Source of the DNA: Polytrichum commune
Taxonomy: Eukaryota > Streptophyta > Polytrichopsida > Polytrichales > Polytrichaceae
Reading direction: 5' to 3'
DNA: 64,000 bases
Assembly: GCA_950295325.1 (NCBI GenBank)
Contig: OX485804.1
Span: forward strand, 14,138,001 to 14,202,000
Below, piece after piece: positions 4,848 to 47,389 of this stretch (position 1 is its first letter; each line of letters begins with the position of its first letter). A program made the position numbers and the translations under genes. A model generated the notes under the pieces. The model saw only the letters and a list, made by a program, of their open reading frames with translations. It did no database searches and was not told the DNA's origin.

Positions 4848-5467
4848 TAAGAATCCCACCGGTTTCCATATCCAATCCAATAAGGTAGAGGGGCCCTTTT
4901 CCGCTCGGGTCCTTAAACCGCTCACTAGACCTATCCAAACAAGAGGTACATTATAGCTTCCAACCTCAAATTTTTATGTGATCATGGTGTACATTTTTGG
5001 GGTGAGTGGTTTTGGGAACCCCTATGAGTTCTCCTTCCAAAATTCATAACTAATTCAATATTAATCCAAATTTAATTATTCCAATTGGTCCAATTTCCAA
5101 TGTACTTTGCACAGCTTTCAAGATTGATTCCCCCTTAATAACTCCCCAATGAACATGCCAATCTGAAATTCGAGCGGGAAAGGGCCCCTCTACCTTACAC
5201 GTAGAAATTGAAAAGAAAAAGAAAGCGAAAGGGGCTTTGTTGTCCAAAGTCACTAGGACCACTTATTGGAAACCATGCAGTTTTGCACACAGCCGCCATA
5301 GAAACGGTGCAATTCCAACCCACTTACATGGAAAGCGCTTCCTACATAAGAGCATGAATAAAGACTTTAGGCAATGGTGCCTAAGTACTATTGCAATTCA
5401 CAAACATTGAAGTCCAAGATGCTGGCACAAAAAGGCCAGCTCTCCCTGTAAGTTACATTGTGTCTAA

Positions 5468-5967
5468 GGGCCACTTCACACACGAGCCAAGAGCCGAGAC
5501 CATGTAATTGTGAGAGCCCAAAAGAAAGTGTCCAAAAGCCATCCCAACACACCTCCAACATCGTGTAGTGTGGTCACGGACCCTCAAGTGTAGTGTGAAG
5601 TCGTATGTGACCGGGCCTTCAACCAAATGTTATTTCAATGAATGTCTATTCATGCGGGTCTTCATATATGATAAAATAGAATAAATTATAGTTGTGAGCG
5701 TTCGGAATGCCATGGTCTCCTGGTTTTGTGTTAAGCCTACCTCCAAAGAAGTCGTTTTTGAAAATAGGTTAAGGGATCAAATAACATGATTCATTCGATG
5801 CCATGTAGGAATCCATGTAGACTTTACATCCATCTTGCATTCACATACTCTGTTGGTCCCTCAAGCATAGTGTGAAGCAAACTTGTACCGGCTCCACCTT
5901 GTCCACTAATGAGGGTGCCTATAGTGTGATGGTCACGGGCTCTCAGTCGTGAGTGTGCATTGGCCTT
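5468..5967. mobile_element. PIF/Harbinger-like MITE, subfamily H copy 1
   Basis: It starts GGGCCACTTCACACACGAGC after TAA (5465-5467) and ends before TAA (5968-5970). It shares its whole length of about 490 bp with the elements at 18049 and 46685, including AATTGTGAGAGCCCA, GTTCGGA-TGCCATGG and AAGCGAACTTG-like blocks. Confidence 0.75.
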
Positions 5968-6205
5968 TAAGTCCCACCCATGTCAACAAATCCCAACATG
6001 GAGGCAAAAGTCCCAACTTTCTAAGCCTCAAGAAACCATTCAAATACAATTAATTATCATTAAAATTGGATCTTGATAATTTTTTGCAAAAATATTTGCG
6101 GAACTTGTGTGGAGAGTCGGGTCTTAGCTTTTTGCTCCACCCAACTCTCAACACAAGTCCCAAGATTCACCTCCACAAAATGTTACCATGTAGGCATCCA
6201 TGTGG

Positions 6206-17285: not shown

Positions 17286-18048
17286 CAACACTAGTATCCA
17301 ATTTAGTGTGATGTTGATATTGATAAGGCATGTTGATTAAAGTAGTCTAGCTCCATCATTTTGTCAAGTCCCAACAAGTGCCATCTTCTCAAGTTGCCAC
17401 CCAATGATTGCAAGATCATTTACTTGAACCAATAGTGTTTAATGTGTACCACATAAAATCATATGTGTAGTGTAACCCCATTAGACTTATTCGAGGTCTT
17501 TGACAACATTTTGAAATTATTTACTAAAAAATTGGATAATTCCTCGCTTGCTTTCATTTTCATCTTCCCAATGTATGATATTACCTCGACAACATGAACC
17601 TCTAACCACTGGGCTGAGGCTAGACATCCACCTCTTTGAGTTGGGCCTCCATCAATATTACCCAAGGTGAAAACGCAAACAACTATATATTATAACTTAT
17701 GTTTTTTTTATATTCAACAATTTGACACCAAAATTAACCCATATATCCCAAATTAGAGCCAAAAAATGCATTTCAACAAATTAACCATAAATATACGAGG
17801 GTCATGTTTTTACTAAACCCCAAAGTTTACCTCGATAATGTTGGTGGGCGGCTAGTCCCAGCCCTAACCCATGTACTAGAAAAGGCCCAATGGAATGGAG
17901 CAAGTGGAAACATGGCCGGGGGTGGCCACAATGGCAACTACAAAAGGGGAAGTACTCTGCAACTGACCACCCTCTCACCTGTCAAACCTTACATAAAATG
18001 CGTTGAAAACCATGCCCACAAATTTAGAGCATTTGAACCGACCACTTG

Positions 18049-18551
18049 GGGCCACTTCACACACAAGCCAAGAGCCGAGACCATGAAATTGTGAGAGCCC
18101 ACAAGAAAGTGTCCAAAGGCCGTCCCGGCACACCTCCCAAATCATGTAGTGTGGTCATGGATCCTCAAGTGTAGTGTGAAGTCAGATGTGACCAGGCCCT
18201 CAACCAAATGCTATTTTAGTGAATTCTTATTCATGCGGGTCCTCACACATGACAAAATAGAATAAACCAACAGTTGTGAGCGTTCGGAGTGCCATGGTGT
18301 CCCGGTTTTGTGTTAGGCCTACCTCCAAGAAATGGTTTTTGAGAATAGTCCAAGTGACCATGAAACATGATCCATTCGATGCCACATAGGAAGGAATCCG
18401 TGTAGACTTTACATCCATCTTGCACTCACATACTCCGTTGGTCCCTCAAGCGTAGTGTGCAGCGAACTTGGACCGGCTCCGCCTTTTCCACCAATAAGAG
18501 TGCTTGAAGTGTAATGGTCACGGGCACTCAGTCTCATGTGTGAAGTGGCCC
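18049..18551. mobile_element. PIF/Harbinger-like MITE, subfamily H copy 2
   Basis: It starts GGGCCACTTCACACACAAGC and ends GTGTGAAGTGGCCC, with trinucleotides TTG and TTA at the two sides. It is collinear with the copies at 5468 and 46685. Confidence 0.75.
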
Positions 18552-18560
18552 TTAGTTACT

Positions 18561-29807: not shown

Positions 29808-30205
29808 GGCGAAACAATTCTCAAAACCCTGATGAAAGCAAAACCTCGGAGGCAGGTCAGCTATGGCGATGAAGCTCCCTTCCCTTCCCTTCCCTTCCCT
29901 TCCCTTTGCGTGGCTCCCTCCTCCGTCTTCGTCTTCGTCTCCGTCTCCTTTCTCCCCCTACATGGCTCCTGTCCAATCAGAACGCAGTGCCACATGTGTT
30001 TTCCTTTGGCCAGGTGGGATGATTTGGCATTCCTATGTGGCGCTCCGTCTCGTCATGTTCGTGCAGAGAGCGAATGGCGACGTGCCATGTGGCCACCTCC
30101 TTCCCTTCTGCTTCGTTCCCTCTGTTCATCTTCCGAGTCTCCTTTCTCCTCTAACTCACATGGCTCTTGTCCAGTCAGAAGGCAGTGCCATATGTGGCTT
30201 TATGT
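29808..30205 (-). promoter_or_regulatory. ALG7 5' flank with duplicated segment and CCCTT microsatellite
   Basis: This C-rich stretch lies just upstream of the ALG7 start on the minus strand. It holds a run of CCCTT pentamers at about 29878-29905. A segment of about 40 bp around 29960-29998 recurs near 30158-30197 (shared ACATGGCTC, TGTCCA and GCAGTGCCA parts), so the putative promoter contains a diverged duplication of roughly 200 bp. A promoter role is inferred from position only. Confidence 0.45.
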
Positions 30206-30210
30206 GGCTA

Positions 30211-30480
30211 AGAGTATGTGGGTGTTATTCGGTTTGTTTTTCATGCTCTCCAACTTCTACCAAATCTATTTATTACACAACAAAACTTTTATTGCATTGG
30301 CAAGTCTACAATGATGCATCAACACAAATCATATTCAAAATAGGATCTTCCGTTATTGAGTTAAAATTATCGGAAGGGTGTGTTTGTTGATTCCATTTGA
30401 TGAGTTGAAACACACATATGTCCATCCAATCATGGTTATTATTTGAGTGTAGAGTAGTTGATAAAATTTGAAGATGTAAT
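30211..30480 (+). repeat. Hairpin family W copy
   Basis: It begins GTATGTGGGTGTTATTCGG, has CTCTCCAACTTCTACCAAAT, ACACAACAAAACTTTTATTG and GTGTTTGTTGATTCC, and ends near a GAGTGTAGAGTAGTTGATAA block. This order is shared with copies at 39, 47 and 54 kb (+) and 35, 42 and 44 kb (-). Confidence 0.65.
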
Positions 30481-31084
30481 CTAGTTCCATTGATGACCTG
30501 AAGGGGTTGTGTAAATAGATGCCCTTTGTGATGGACTCCGAAGTGCTCAACCATCAAAGCTTCAACTACACCTTTTTGGGCATGTTCCATACACGTATAA
30601 TTTCAACACTAGGGTTGATCTGAACATGTTCTTCACATTTGCAGTAGTTTTGATGAAATAGGTGAAGGTGTAAGAATAGAAAGAAGAGGATTTAAATTAC
30701 TCATAAAGTGTACTAACAATTGTAATAGTATAGCAAGACCAGAGCAAAGCAAAGCACAAACCAAAAAAATTGGGTAGTCCATGTTAGCAAATTGTGGCCA
30801 AAAAAACCTTCATTAAAGGACAAAAAAAACAAAGACAAACTATCCTAAATGGCCTCCTCTAGGCTACTGGTGTGGGGCCCCGCACCGGCGCATAAAGTAA
30901 AACATGGCTAGACATGCGACTCTAGCCGCTAGCAGAAGAGGCGAACATGTTAGAAACCGCCCATGTGTGGCTACAACTAGAAATGGTTCCCCGACTCCAA
31001 CCAATTACTAAGGCTGGAAACCACCACTGTGCAACAAAACCCAAACCAAGAGCTCCAACGCATGAGGCTCCAAACCTCCTCACA

Positions 31085-31896
31085 TCAATGATCAAGCACA
31101 AGCTCTTGCGCTCTAAAATACCTCATGTTGGAGACATCCATCATGGTGTCAAAGAAGATATTGGAGATGTTGTCCATGGTGATATCGTGAGGGTTCATCA
31201 TTGTCTTCCATATGGCAACCACACGCTTGACATCCATCCCTACATATCTCAATGGAATTACCCAAATTGGGTTGGGGTAGAATTGCCCGCTCTTGCAAAT
31301 ATGGAAAAGAGTGTTGGGGAGACAAACACCCAAATACTTTTCATACAAAATCATCATGCCCATTGATGAGCTTTTTGCAATATGTTGCTATGAGAGAGAT
31401 TCACACAATTGTTCAAACTAACTTTCCCAAACTTCGCATATTCCAGTTTCCCTCATTCATGTCCTCCACGGTGACATTATGATGGTCAAACTCAAAATGC
31501 TCCTCCCCTTTATCCTTCATGCAATATTCAACCATCCCTAGGAGTATATGCAAGCCTTCACCCCTCAAGTGCTTGCAAGACACCACATGACTCGTGGGAA
31601 AACTCTCATCCCATCCCAAACAAATCTGAATATTTTTTGTTTAACATTGGCAGTCTAGTGCCATTCCCCTTCACAATCACTTGAAAATGTTTGTGCGTCA
31701 ATGCGCCACCCCTCTCCATAGAGCACAACACCACAATGCACTCCTCCTTCATAAACTTCCTCAATTTTATAATAACTCTAATGTCCATGTCCGTTCCTCC
31801 CACGGCCATTGTCACGAAAGCTTCGGAATACTTGAAGCAAGCATGAGTCCTCTCTTGCCCTCGAGAGCGGACGAGAGCGCGCATTCTTGGAGGCAT
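31085..31896 (-). pseudogene. Decayed HUH (Y1) transposase, Replitron-like
   Basis: Read from 31896 down, three overlapping frames make one broken protein. The first (31896-31606) has FVTMAVGG, then MERGGALTHKHFQ with the HxH metal-binding pair at 31695-31687. The second (31619-31413) continues with GWDESFP and then VEYCMKDKGEEHF, whose Tyr (31526-31524) and Lys fit the YxxK motif of one-tyrosine Rep endonucleases. The third (31363-31085) has YLGVCLP, PNPIWVIPLRYVGMD and a tail like the extra C-terminal domain of such transposases. Motif order HUH then Y1, with no helicase domain seen, fits Replitrons, copy-and-paste elements of non-seed plants and algae, better than Helitrons or ssDNA viruses. 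At least two frameshifts and stops show it is dead. Family assignment is from motif memory, not a search. Confidence 0.65.
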
Positions 31897-32984
31897 AGTG
31901 AGAAATTAGAAAGGAGGCATACTCAATTCATAGCAACCAGACAATCATATACCAAAACGGAGCACCAAACCTTGTCACGGAAGCTTGCAGGTACTCAAAC
32001 TGCAAAGCACCAAAGCCCATTGCTACGCATTGTGTTCCCATGCAGAACTCTTGTGCCGCACTCATGGTTACCCAGTCCCACTGGACTTCACCGTAGCAAA
32101 TCTCATCACCTATCAACTATCCCACCGAAATTCAACACAACCATACCCATCCACCTATCCGGCTATTGGCCAACCCCAATACTTCTCCCAAAAAATGACC
32201 AACCCACCCCCAAACCAATCCCAAGGTTGGCCAAACAAAGTTATCCCCGTCATTGCCCCCCCCCCCCCTCCCTCCCCCCCTTAATGTGCTTGATCAGGTC
32301 TTACTTATTGGGTTGGCTTGGCTTGGCTTCGAATCCGGTGTGCATGCAAGAAAGAGAACATGGGAGGGGGAAGTTTTGTGAAGTCTTTTTTCCCTTCTGT
32401 AATCTTACTTTTGACACCCAAAATCGGTGTTGCATTCATTTCTACTCTTCTACACAAATACTTTTCATTTCAACCAAACCCTTGGCATGTGTTATGCCAC
32501 AATCGCACACTTCTAACAATGTTCTTCATCCTCCTTGCAATCTTCTTTGCAAAATTTTAAATTTTTAAGCATTTCATGGTTTTCTTCAGGGTAGTAATTT
32601 GCTCCTAGCAACTTTGCTTTTAGTGTTTTCCTACACATGGAAGATCTTACCCGTACATTGATGCCTCAATGATGCATGGTTCAACACTTTGAGTGCCAAA
32701 AGCCAATTTCCACGTTAACTTGAGCATGAGCCTACCCAAAGTGTATACGACACGTCATAAAATTGTTTCCAAAAATAATTTGTGTGGAACCAAACAACAC
32801 TTACAGTGTTGTCCGTCAACTATGTAGGATTGGGTTATGTATGGTTTGAGCTCTATTAGGAGTGTATAGAAAGTTTTGTGTCATGAAGTGACTACAAACC
32901 TATCATTGTGTTAGGTAAATTTCAACAAAATGAATCATACAGAATCATATAGGTTTGGACACTAGCTGAGAGGGATGAATCTTT

Positions 32985-39260: not shown

Positions 39261-39713
39261 CACCGAACCACATATGTTACCAATCAAATGTAGGGTTCCG
39301 ATTAAGACAAAGAGCCACTTAAGACCCATCTAGATTACCTTAATAGAAGACATACACCATGAGACCAACAATGAGGAGGGGCCAATGGGAGAGCAAATCG
39401 GGGGTTGCGAATTAGATCGCATGCAGGCGCCAGCGACGCCGCGTGTCGCAACTCCTTATCCTGCAAAATCCGTCGCTCCACGTGTCAGGAGCTGGCAGCC
39501 CAGCCTCGTCAGCCGCCACTTCTCTCCCCTGCGCTTCTTCTTACTTATATCGCAGCCCCTCCTCTACCTTCACATGCATCGCAATTCAACAACACAATAC
39601 GCCTATCCATCTCGATCATCCACCATCCAATTTCTCCCCCTTCCCAATTTCTAGGTCACTTTCTGCAATCCGTTGCGCAACATTTGAGTGTGCGTTTGGA
39701 GGGCTTTGTTGCA

Positions 39714-41738
39714 ATGGCATCGACGACAGCTGCTATGGTTGGATCCAGTGTTGTGGCTGCTGCTCCCGCGAGCTTGTCTTCCACCTCTGTGTTTGGATCC
39801 TCGTGCGGAGTGTCCAGCTTCGCCCCTGTCGCCACTCGGGTTAACAGTGCCCGGTCTGTCGCCGTGCGAGCTAGCCAATCTTCCAATGAGGTGAGAGGTT
39901 GTTGCATTTTGAGTTTCTTGGACATAACTGAGTTATTCTCTAACTCGACTTGAGATTTGGATGTTTTGCATACAACACTTTCCATGTTCGGTAAGTCTTC
40001 GGGGAAATGCGAGGAGGTAGTATGGACGTTTGAATGAACAACGTTTTACATGGCTTCGTTGAGGATGAAACTCAATTTGGCATGTCAGGAGGCGCTAAAA
40101 CGAGTTTAGCCCTCGATGAATCAAAATCATGGGTTGCTGTTCAATTTTAAACACAACCTCCAAGTATGCATCACAAGTGGAAAGACAATTTTATGTTTTT
40201 ATGTGAAGCAACCAATGGGATGGGATATGATAGGGAACCAACTCGTAAACGAGAAGTCTGATTGAGTTAATCAAGGATTCAACTCTAAATAACTGTGGTG
40301 GAAGAGATTGGAGCAATGCCTCCTCTGGCGGATCGGTAACGATTTCGTCGTGTGGAATTTAGTTGCATGTGGCATTGAGATTGCCTGTATGTAGCGGTGA
40401 TGGATGTTGGATTGCAAACTGTGCGATCTGTCTCTGTCCATTTCATTCGTCTGCGTGGACTGACCAATTAGCGAGTGGTTTGAATTTGTGGAAACTTCAC
40501 CAGATTTAGTACATTGAGATTCACGCGTCGCAACTGCGAATCATTGCTAGTAACCTAACACGACGATGATGTCCTGTGAGCAGGAGATGAAGGCAGCAAG
40601 GAGAGAAGTGATCACCGGCCTGTTCGCTGCAGGTGCTCTATTGGCCTCCGCACCAGCGTTCGCATTATCTGGTCCAGGTGGCGATGGCGCTGAGCGCACT
40701 GCCAAGAAGGCCGATGAGCTTTTGAACAGCGCAGATGAGTTAACAAAGAATGACTCTCCCCCGTTGTTCGGGAAAGGTGGTGTGCAAGGTGCAGTGCAGG
40801 AAGCCGGATCCACAGCCAAACAGTAAGTGATTCTCCTCCCTATTTGTTTGCATTACAACGTAAAGAATGCTCAATGCTTGCAACATGATAAAAACTTGAT
40901 AAACAGGGCACATTAAGTAATTATCATCACATTTTGTTGGCCTAGCAATGTAAAGAATGCTAAATGCAGCATGATAAAAAAATTTATAAACAGGACATGA
41001 AAGTAAATGTCATCCCATTTTGCTCACATAGCAATGTAAAGAATGCTAAATGCTTGCAACCTGATAAAAATTCTATAAACAAGCTGCATTAAGTACTTCT
41101 TATCCCAATTTGTTTTTGCGTAGCATTGTAAAGAATGCTAAATGCATGCAACATGATAAACATTCCATAAAAAATATACAGTAAGCACTTCTCATCCCAT
41201 TTTTTATTCATAGCAATGTAAAGGAAGCCCAATTGCTTGCAACATGGTAAAAGCCTCCATAAACAGCGCTGAATACAAGTTCAAACTAAACCCTAAGCTT
41301 GTCCTTGGTGCTGATAATTTCTGTAAATTTTGGTTTGCAGGGCGGGGTCAGGCACAGCAAAGAATGTGCAGGATGTTGCAGATGCAGCCGTGACAAATGC
41401 CAGGAACAACTTGAACAAGGCTAAAGCTAGTTTCGGCGACCTCATGGGAACAGGTGAGCAGCGAGATTACGTAACTACACTCGTAATGTCACTCTAGCAA
41501 GCGTTGGTGTTCATGCTGACGATATGTTTCATCAGATTGTGTTGTTCGGTAAATGGCAGGGTTGCGGGAACTGTATAATAGCTCTGCTGTTCTCAATCAC
41601 ATCTCCATACCATCAGATTTGGTGATGGATATGTTTCTGAGCTGCACATTTGAGATTTGGCTCAAGAAGCTTTATCAATGGCCTGTCCAATTGTGATATT
41701 TGTGATAATGAATCATGTGTTTTTGTGCAGGTAAGTAA
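39714..41738 (+). CDS. Putative thylakoid-lumen precursor protein of unknown function (4 exons)
   Basis: Exons 39714-39890, 40584-40822 and 41341-41453 join in phase (177, 239 and 113 bp) through GT-AG introns. The last exon is uncertain: the simplest solution uses the acceptor before 41731 and adds Gly-Lys and a stop, giving about 178 residues. Residues 1 to about 52 are Ser/Ala/Val-rich with few acidic residues, like a chloroplast transit peptide. Exon 2 then encodes AARREVITGLFAAGALLASA followed by PAFA, a twin-arginine, hydrophobic core and AxA cleavage pattern, as expected for Tat import into the thylakoid lumen. The predicted mature part is small, hydrophilic and rich in Ala, Lys, Asp and Asn, with amphipathic helical character (AERTAKKADELLNSADEL). 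I do not recognise the family. An alternative acceptor before 41561 would lengthen the C-terminus. Confidence 0.75.
40845..41285 (+). repeat. Minisatellite of about 90 bp, five units, in intron 2 of the lumen-protein gene
   Basis: Units share GTAAAGAATGCTAAATGC, a GCAACATGATAAAAA stretch and an ATAAACA stretch. The GTAAAG landmark occurs near 40860, 40951, 41036, 41128 and 41218, so the period is 85-92 bp. The units are diverged and non-coding. The array makes up most of the 518-bp intron. Confidence 0.8.
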
Positions 41739-46450: not shown

Positions 46451-46684
46451 TTGATATTATTAGAGCGGAACAACCAATAGCAAGTATATAATGTTATGTA
46501 GTTAGATTCAACATTGAAGCCGACATATGAGAGAATTGCTAAAGAAATTGTGCGGGGAGCAATTGCATATTATTCATGACCCAAAAACTAATGCCCAGGT
46601 GGAGGAATGTTATGACAATAGATATCGCCAACAATAGATTTTTTTTTTTTTTTTTGAGAGAGTTTTTCAAAACGAGAGCAGTAG

Positions 46685-47163
46685 GGGCTACTACACACAA
46701 GGGCCAAGAGCCATGACCCTGAAATTGTGAGAGCCCAAAAGAAAGTGACCAAAGGTTGTCCCAAGACGCCTCCTAAATCATGTAGTGTGAAGTCATATGT
46801 GACAGGGCCCTCAACCAAATGCTATTTCAATGGATGTGTCTATTCATGCGGGTCCTTACACATGACGAAATAAAGTAAATTGACGGTTGTGAGTATTCGA
46901 AGTGCCATGGTCTCCCAACGATTTTGTGTTAGGCCTACCTCCAAGAGGTGGGTTTTGAAAATAGTCCAAGTGACCATGAAACCTCATCCATTGGATGCCA
47001 TGTAGGAATCCATGTAGACTTTATATCCATCATGCACTTACTTACTATGTTGGTCCCTCAAGTGTAGTGTGAAGCGAACTTGGACCAGCTCCACCTTTTC
47101 CACCAATGAGAGCACTTGAAGTGCAATGGTCACGGGCCCTCAGTCTAGTGTGTGAAGTGGCCC
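46685..47163. mobile_element. PIF/Harbinger-like MITE, subfamily H copy 3
   Basis: It starts GGGGCTACTACACACAAGG and ends GTGTGAAGTGGCCC before TAA (47164-47166). It is collinear with the copies at 5468 and 18049, with a short internal deletion. Confidence 0.7.
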
Positions 47164-47389
47164 TAAGTTTGGCAGGGTACCGGAAGCTCCCACATAATCC
47201 CCCAAAAGCAAGGGAACAACTTTGTTGGAGCCCCATACACATGTTTTCTAAATGGAAAATAAATGTGTGGTGATCCATTCTTTTGTGGAGCCAATTTTTT
47301 AGCTTGGGTTGTCCCCAAAAACAAGGTTGGGTTTACTAGCCCACCATTTGCATGGAACAAGGCCCACTTGCTTCATATTAGCTCTAAGG

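Follow-up and report, generated by a model that had tools for sequence, protein, structure and literature searches.

A minus-strand relic in the window (the whole 64,000-nucleotide stretch analysed here, positions 14138001-14202000 of its contig) is most probably a dead, old copy of a Replitron, whose ancestor of about 1.7 kb would have carried one gene, for an HUH/Y1 endonuclease with a Replitron C-terminal domain. We give this reading, made from sequence, a probability of about 0.94. The Replitron class is known already and this member of it is new; a literature search confined to open papers found no published description of the family. The relic is an unremarkable remnant of a type of transposon described only recently, one among many dead copies in the same genome. 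Its parts are the following:

30638..32309, minus strand: whole putative Replitron relic, about 1.67 kb; 5′ end clear (model match), 3′ end tentative, length like that of other copies
31076..31896, minus strand: conserved core of the transposase ORF, broken in frame; core model match at 31896-31077, E 1.4e-232 (24 seeds, the window among them)
31616..31896, minus strand: frame piece 1, with start codon, N-terminus and HUH motif THKHFQ; 17.2 bits to PF21859
31416..31640, minus strand: frame piece 2, with Tyr motif EYCMKD; 28.9 bits to PF21859
31088..31342, minus strand: frame piece 3, Replitron C-terminal domain; 34.0 bits to PF21860, also found in the genome scan
32265..32309, minus strand: 5′ terminus AATAAGTAAGAC...CAAGCACATTAAGGGGGGG, common to other copies
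30614..30984, minus strand: decayed C-terminal tail together with the 3′ untranslated part and a probable 3′ end; weak tail-model match

The original prediction had named three conserved blocks lying in collinear order but in three frames. Reading the frames of the window, we found them as described on the minus strand, ERGGALTHKHFQ at 31713-31681, YCMKDKGEEHF at 31526-31494 and PNPIWVIPLRYVGMD at 31276-31232 (positions counted by hand). The ATG at 31896 is common to most relatives. The reading frame changes three times or more and, read in the frame of the family, meets two stops; the copy is dead, as had been supposed. The span first assigned to it, 31085-31896, holds for the ORF core, while the whole element has about double that length. 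In the window copy, similarity ends at exactly 31076 against six copies in one comparison and against L022 and L009 in another (loci carry the prefix L); other copies continue past the core into a fast-changing tail.

Both transposase domains were recognised by curated Pfam models, in the right order. A profile search with the frame pieces had been suggested along with the prediction, and the joined pieces, with X at the breaks, gave 44.9 bits (E 1.9e-11, cut-off 28.5) with PF21859, Replitron_HUH, and 25.6 bits (E 1.7e-5), just below the cut-off of 27, with PF21860, Replitron_C. Taken alone, piece 1 stayed below the HUH cut-off although it carries the HUH motif, piece 2 was just above it, and piece 3 exceeded the cut-off of the C model; scanning the genome with PF21860 gave 33.3 bits for the C domain of the window. 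Relatives read letter for letter reached 57.7, 58.2, 60.3 and 40.7 bits with PF21859 (cut-off 28.5). Judged by these model scores, the domain matches exceed chance. The Pfam scans of the ORF pieces, covering the coding parts, listed no model of a helicase.

An HUH-family match with the His pair and the Tyr aligned, whose absence had been named as an argument against the prediction, was present in the window copy, which keeps all three residues. This is also the case in 41 of the 62 copies readable at all three positions, the window included. Of 66 copies readable at the Tyr, 62 keep it, and it ranks 5 in conservation among 273 positions. The second His is kept in 57 of 67 (rank 67), and the first, at rank 108, in 52 of 65, barely more than the median position (0.80 vs 0.78). 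Between the two His, 58 of 65 copies have a Lys, not the hydrophobic residue given for the general HUH motif in PMC13231165. Two AlphaFold models were of low confidence (mean pLDDT 62.7 and 55.6) and too poor to demonstrate the HUH fold. A phmmer search for a relative of solved structure gave none at E <= 10.

The YCMKD motif around the Tyr seems to resemble the YxxK of CRESS Reps, and the relic could be taken for what is left of a Helitron, or of a Rep gene from an endogenised CRESS-DNA virus. However, when the window pieces and five relatives were scanned with Pfam, HMMER filters dropping most matches above E 0.1, Replitron_HUH and Replitron_C were listed and no Helitron or Rep model was, and one ORF with its flanks takes up almost the whole of the element's roughly 1.7 kb. 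We regard such an origin as extremely improbable, and keep to the Replitron reading.

The genome measures 408 Mb, of which 406 Mb are in seven large contigs, and its owner is photosynthetic, with 19 Rubisco small subunit matches from 20 candidates (a cyanobacterial control matches too). With the relic DNA as query, at least 41 matching pieces were found in its own genome, itself included, when the best 40 of 138 candidates were scored; the closest other piece is 77% identical and the rest 69-76%. At E <= 0.001, Replitron_HUH had at least 74 matches, 71 of them over the cut-off, and Replitron_C had 32, the window's own included. The HUH part of the window is missing among the 74 listed because it is split over frames. 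Neither model found any match in 14 control genomes. We compared 72 distinct loci, window included, L002 and L003 having been dropped because they coincide with L018 and L021; the ORF core is at least partly present in 69, and these are a subset of the listed genome matches.

No young or intact copy was seen among the loci examined, and all examined copies are dead. Over the 69 ORF-bearing loci, one open frame reaches 270 aa and the median is 121. The pair with the highest score among 65 copies shares 82% identity. L068, added later, is 84% identical to L032, 48 kb away on the same contig. This likeness may be a segmental duplication, and because of that possibility the longer 3′ stretch common to the two was not used to define the ends. 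Differences per codon position over 24 of 25 copies (L024, which is split, was left out) were 0.23, 0.20 and 0.45, the third position differing about twice as often. In the 15 closest pairs they were 0.13-0.20, 0.13-0.21 and 0.20-0.36, with a mostly smaller third-position excess. These figures indicate that the deep branches were under protein selection and that the recent ones decayed more freely, as for a once-active transposon.

Could these loci instead be members of a host pseudogene family, or of a domesticated family of transposases, and not transposon copies? The third codon positions are the most changed, and strong similarity is limited to the ORF at ordinary DNA sensitivity, both of which would suit a host family. 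Yet the matches are spread over all seven large contigs, and no open frame runs across the whole conserved core at any of the 69 ORF-bearing loci examined, the longest (289 aa, at L021, the same place as L003) being without the N-terminus. The 5′ and 3′ signatures described below, at a fairly constant distance from the ORF, and two loci with both ends and no ORF also speak against it, so that a host family is very unlikely and the loci are best read as Replitron copies.

The ends of the Replitron copies were both found by softer alignments. The 5′ signature is AATA[A/T]GTGAGAC...CATGCACATT[A/G]G followed by a G-run, mostly 327-433 bp before the ATG, and the 3′ signature is a C-run followed by TTAATCAAACACCCAATA, mostly 440-530 bp past the core. 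In the window copy the 5′ end lies at 32309 (5′ model match at 32314-32268, E 1.3e-8, the window being one of 10 seeds). The 3′ end is tentatively placed at about 30638, within a match at 30984-30614 to a model built from the tails of 22 other copies (E 1.7e-6 for the window, score 20.9 bits, bias 12.2 bits). In the reversed window the tail model matched nothing at E <= 1, and the 3′ end model itself had no match at the presumed 3′ end of the copy. A DNA search with the flanks 31897-32290 and 30650-31076 gave, at its sensitivity, no second match.

The 5′ terminus is common to the seeds L011, L012, L063, L028, L061, L059, L004, L015 and L032, and was recovered unseeded in L017, L033, L007, L044, L047, L038, L043, L025, L065 and the ORF-less L070. 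The 5′ model matched 20 of the 72 loci on the expected side at E <= 0.1, 10 seeds and 10 non-seeds. Counter-cases were L006, matched on the wrong strand, and L049, matched on the wrong side of its ORF (E 0.031) and removed by the position filter in the 72-locus search. The 3′ model matched 18 of the 72 loci, comprising 11 seeds, five loci chosen by that very motif (L069-L073) and the independent L007 and L068; independent support for it is thin, because its matches are mostly seeds or motif-picked loci.

In near-complete copies the ends are about 1.55-1.72 kb apart: the seven copies L032, L059, L061, L043, L015, L011 and the window (3′ end tentative) have both ends and measure 1641-1721 bp, L005 measures 1581 bp and L038 1552 bp. 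L007 is 1146 bp long. Of twelve copies examined with both ends, 9 have AATA at both, the ends having been picked by eye on that motif. L043 has a 7 bp direct repeat, AATAAGT, only if its 3′ flank is included. The 12 copies gave no convincing target-site duplication, and the ACAA that flanks L070 on both sides may be due to chance. The hunt for intact copies and their termini proposed with the original prediction yielded end signatures and, among the loci examined, neither an intact copy nor a convincing target-site duplication.

Two earlier delimitations were dropped. A 0.9 kb element ending at the ORF borders was given up when softer alignments showed longer common stretches, and the end signatures settled the limits; a TATTGGG...CCCAATA inverted repeat was abandoned as the ends once a better common 5′ block appeared farther out. 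Some individual copies have peculiar 3′ ends. The terminal CCCAATAAGT of L043 and a CCCAATATGT-like unit in L005 are tandemly repeated there, perhaps as traces of insertion or slippage, and in L019 a young repeat, of which 54 bp recur unchanged at 26 or more of the places listed, starts from about 3427, right at the relic's 3′ end.

The genome was also scanned with the end patterns. For the 3′ end, allowing up to 3 mismatches, 63 matches were obtained vs 46 in the backward control; we used the 10 matches with 0-2 mismatches, the control figure not being divided by mismatch number. Three of the 10 lie in known copies (L014, L058 and L059), and five were newly fetched: L071 and L073 with an ORF, L070 and L072 with both ends and no ORF, and L069 with a 3′ end only. 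The 5′ end pattern gave 1 match vs 0 in the control, which is uninformative.

L070 (394 bp) and L072 (994 bp), both outside the window, are candidate non-autonomous kin. For L072 the match at the 5′ end is weak, with E 0.0096 among 5 loci, and is absent at E <= 0.1 among 72. L067, with a piece of the ORF and a 3′ end, looks like a deletion derivative. It had been suggested that the window itself might hold such kin; this was not borne out, as the ORF model and both end models matched solely the element itself there, and the best other 3′ end match had an E value of 0.11. The tandem 5′ pieces of L014 were considered as short kin and rejected, being a local tandem duplication that takes in upstream DNA: at 1594-2333 of that locus, in coding strand orientation, the 5′ part of the relic and upstream DNA form three tandem repeats spaced by about 250 bp.

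Other features were seen in the window. A repeat of about 0.5 kb, probably another mobile element, occurs three times (5464-5970, 18042-18554 and 46682-47168), adjoins the Replitron copies L014 and L053 as well, and is 76-88% identical between places. The ORF at 39405-39953 contains a stretch resembling, by eye, a chloroplast transit peptide (MASTTAAMVGSSVV...), and has no Pfam match over the cut-off. An overlapping pair of ORFs at 29832-30390, 160 and 175 aa long, shows internal repeats by eye; the first of them was scanned and gave no Pfam match over the cut-off.

Two other groups of elements share features with this family. The Y1 transposases of IS200/IS605 elements work by one-Tyr HUH chemistry in a small element without helicase. 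In these three respects they are like the present family, from which they differ in being bacterial and in belonging to another protein family (set apart by description). Helitrons are also HUH-based eukaryotic transposons, with a helicase and, as a rule, two Tyr; for the pieces scanned here, the Pfam scans listed no Helitron model. The original Replitron paper is said to be that of Craig in 2023 (PNAS 120 e2301424120). Replitrons were named only in 2023, and the summary in PMC10741241 gives for them a size of 0.9-4 kb, direct terminal repeats of 5-11 bp with no inverted ones, and a target-site duplication of 2-8 bp. The present family agrees with Replitrons in the HUH domain followed by a Replitron C-terminal domain, in the ORF pieces showing no helicase, in a putative short direct terminal repeat, in the photosynthetic host and in the length of the near-complete copies, which falls inside that size range. 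It departs from them in that the confident direct repeat, AATA, is shorter than the 5-11 bp given in PMC10741241, in the lack of a convincing target-site duplication here, and in that all examined copies are dead.

By analogy with HUH enzymes, the His pair would bind a metal ion, and the single Tyr would nick one strand at the element ends and stay joined to the 5′ phosphate; attachment to DNA through a 5′ phosphotyrosine link is described for HUH enzymes in PMC13231165. A single-stranded copy would then move to a new site with host replication, which is invoked because the element encodes no helicase. The sequence that is recognised and cut may include the putative short direct repeat AATA at the two ends. 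After insertion, the window copy would have decayed through frameshifts, stops, and the loss or strong divergence of the DNA just beyond 31076. A bolder version of this scheme, which we consider rather unlikely, would make the family an extinct, undescribed Replitron lineage with an AATA repeat, a G-run inside the 5′ end and a C-run inside the 3′ end, whose ends could pair with each other across the single strand, or could make quadruplex-like marks, for the transposase to read, and whose short ORF-less kin were moved by it.

The general picture of what Replitrons are is unchanged by this family. Its roughly seventy examined relics, together with the recoverable end signatures and the two candidate short kin, are useful for defining Replitron ends, and the family is also informative on how a Replitron lineage dies out in a plant.
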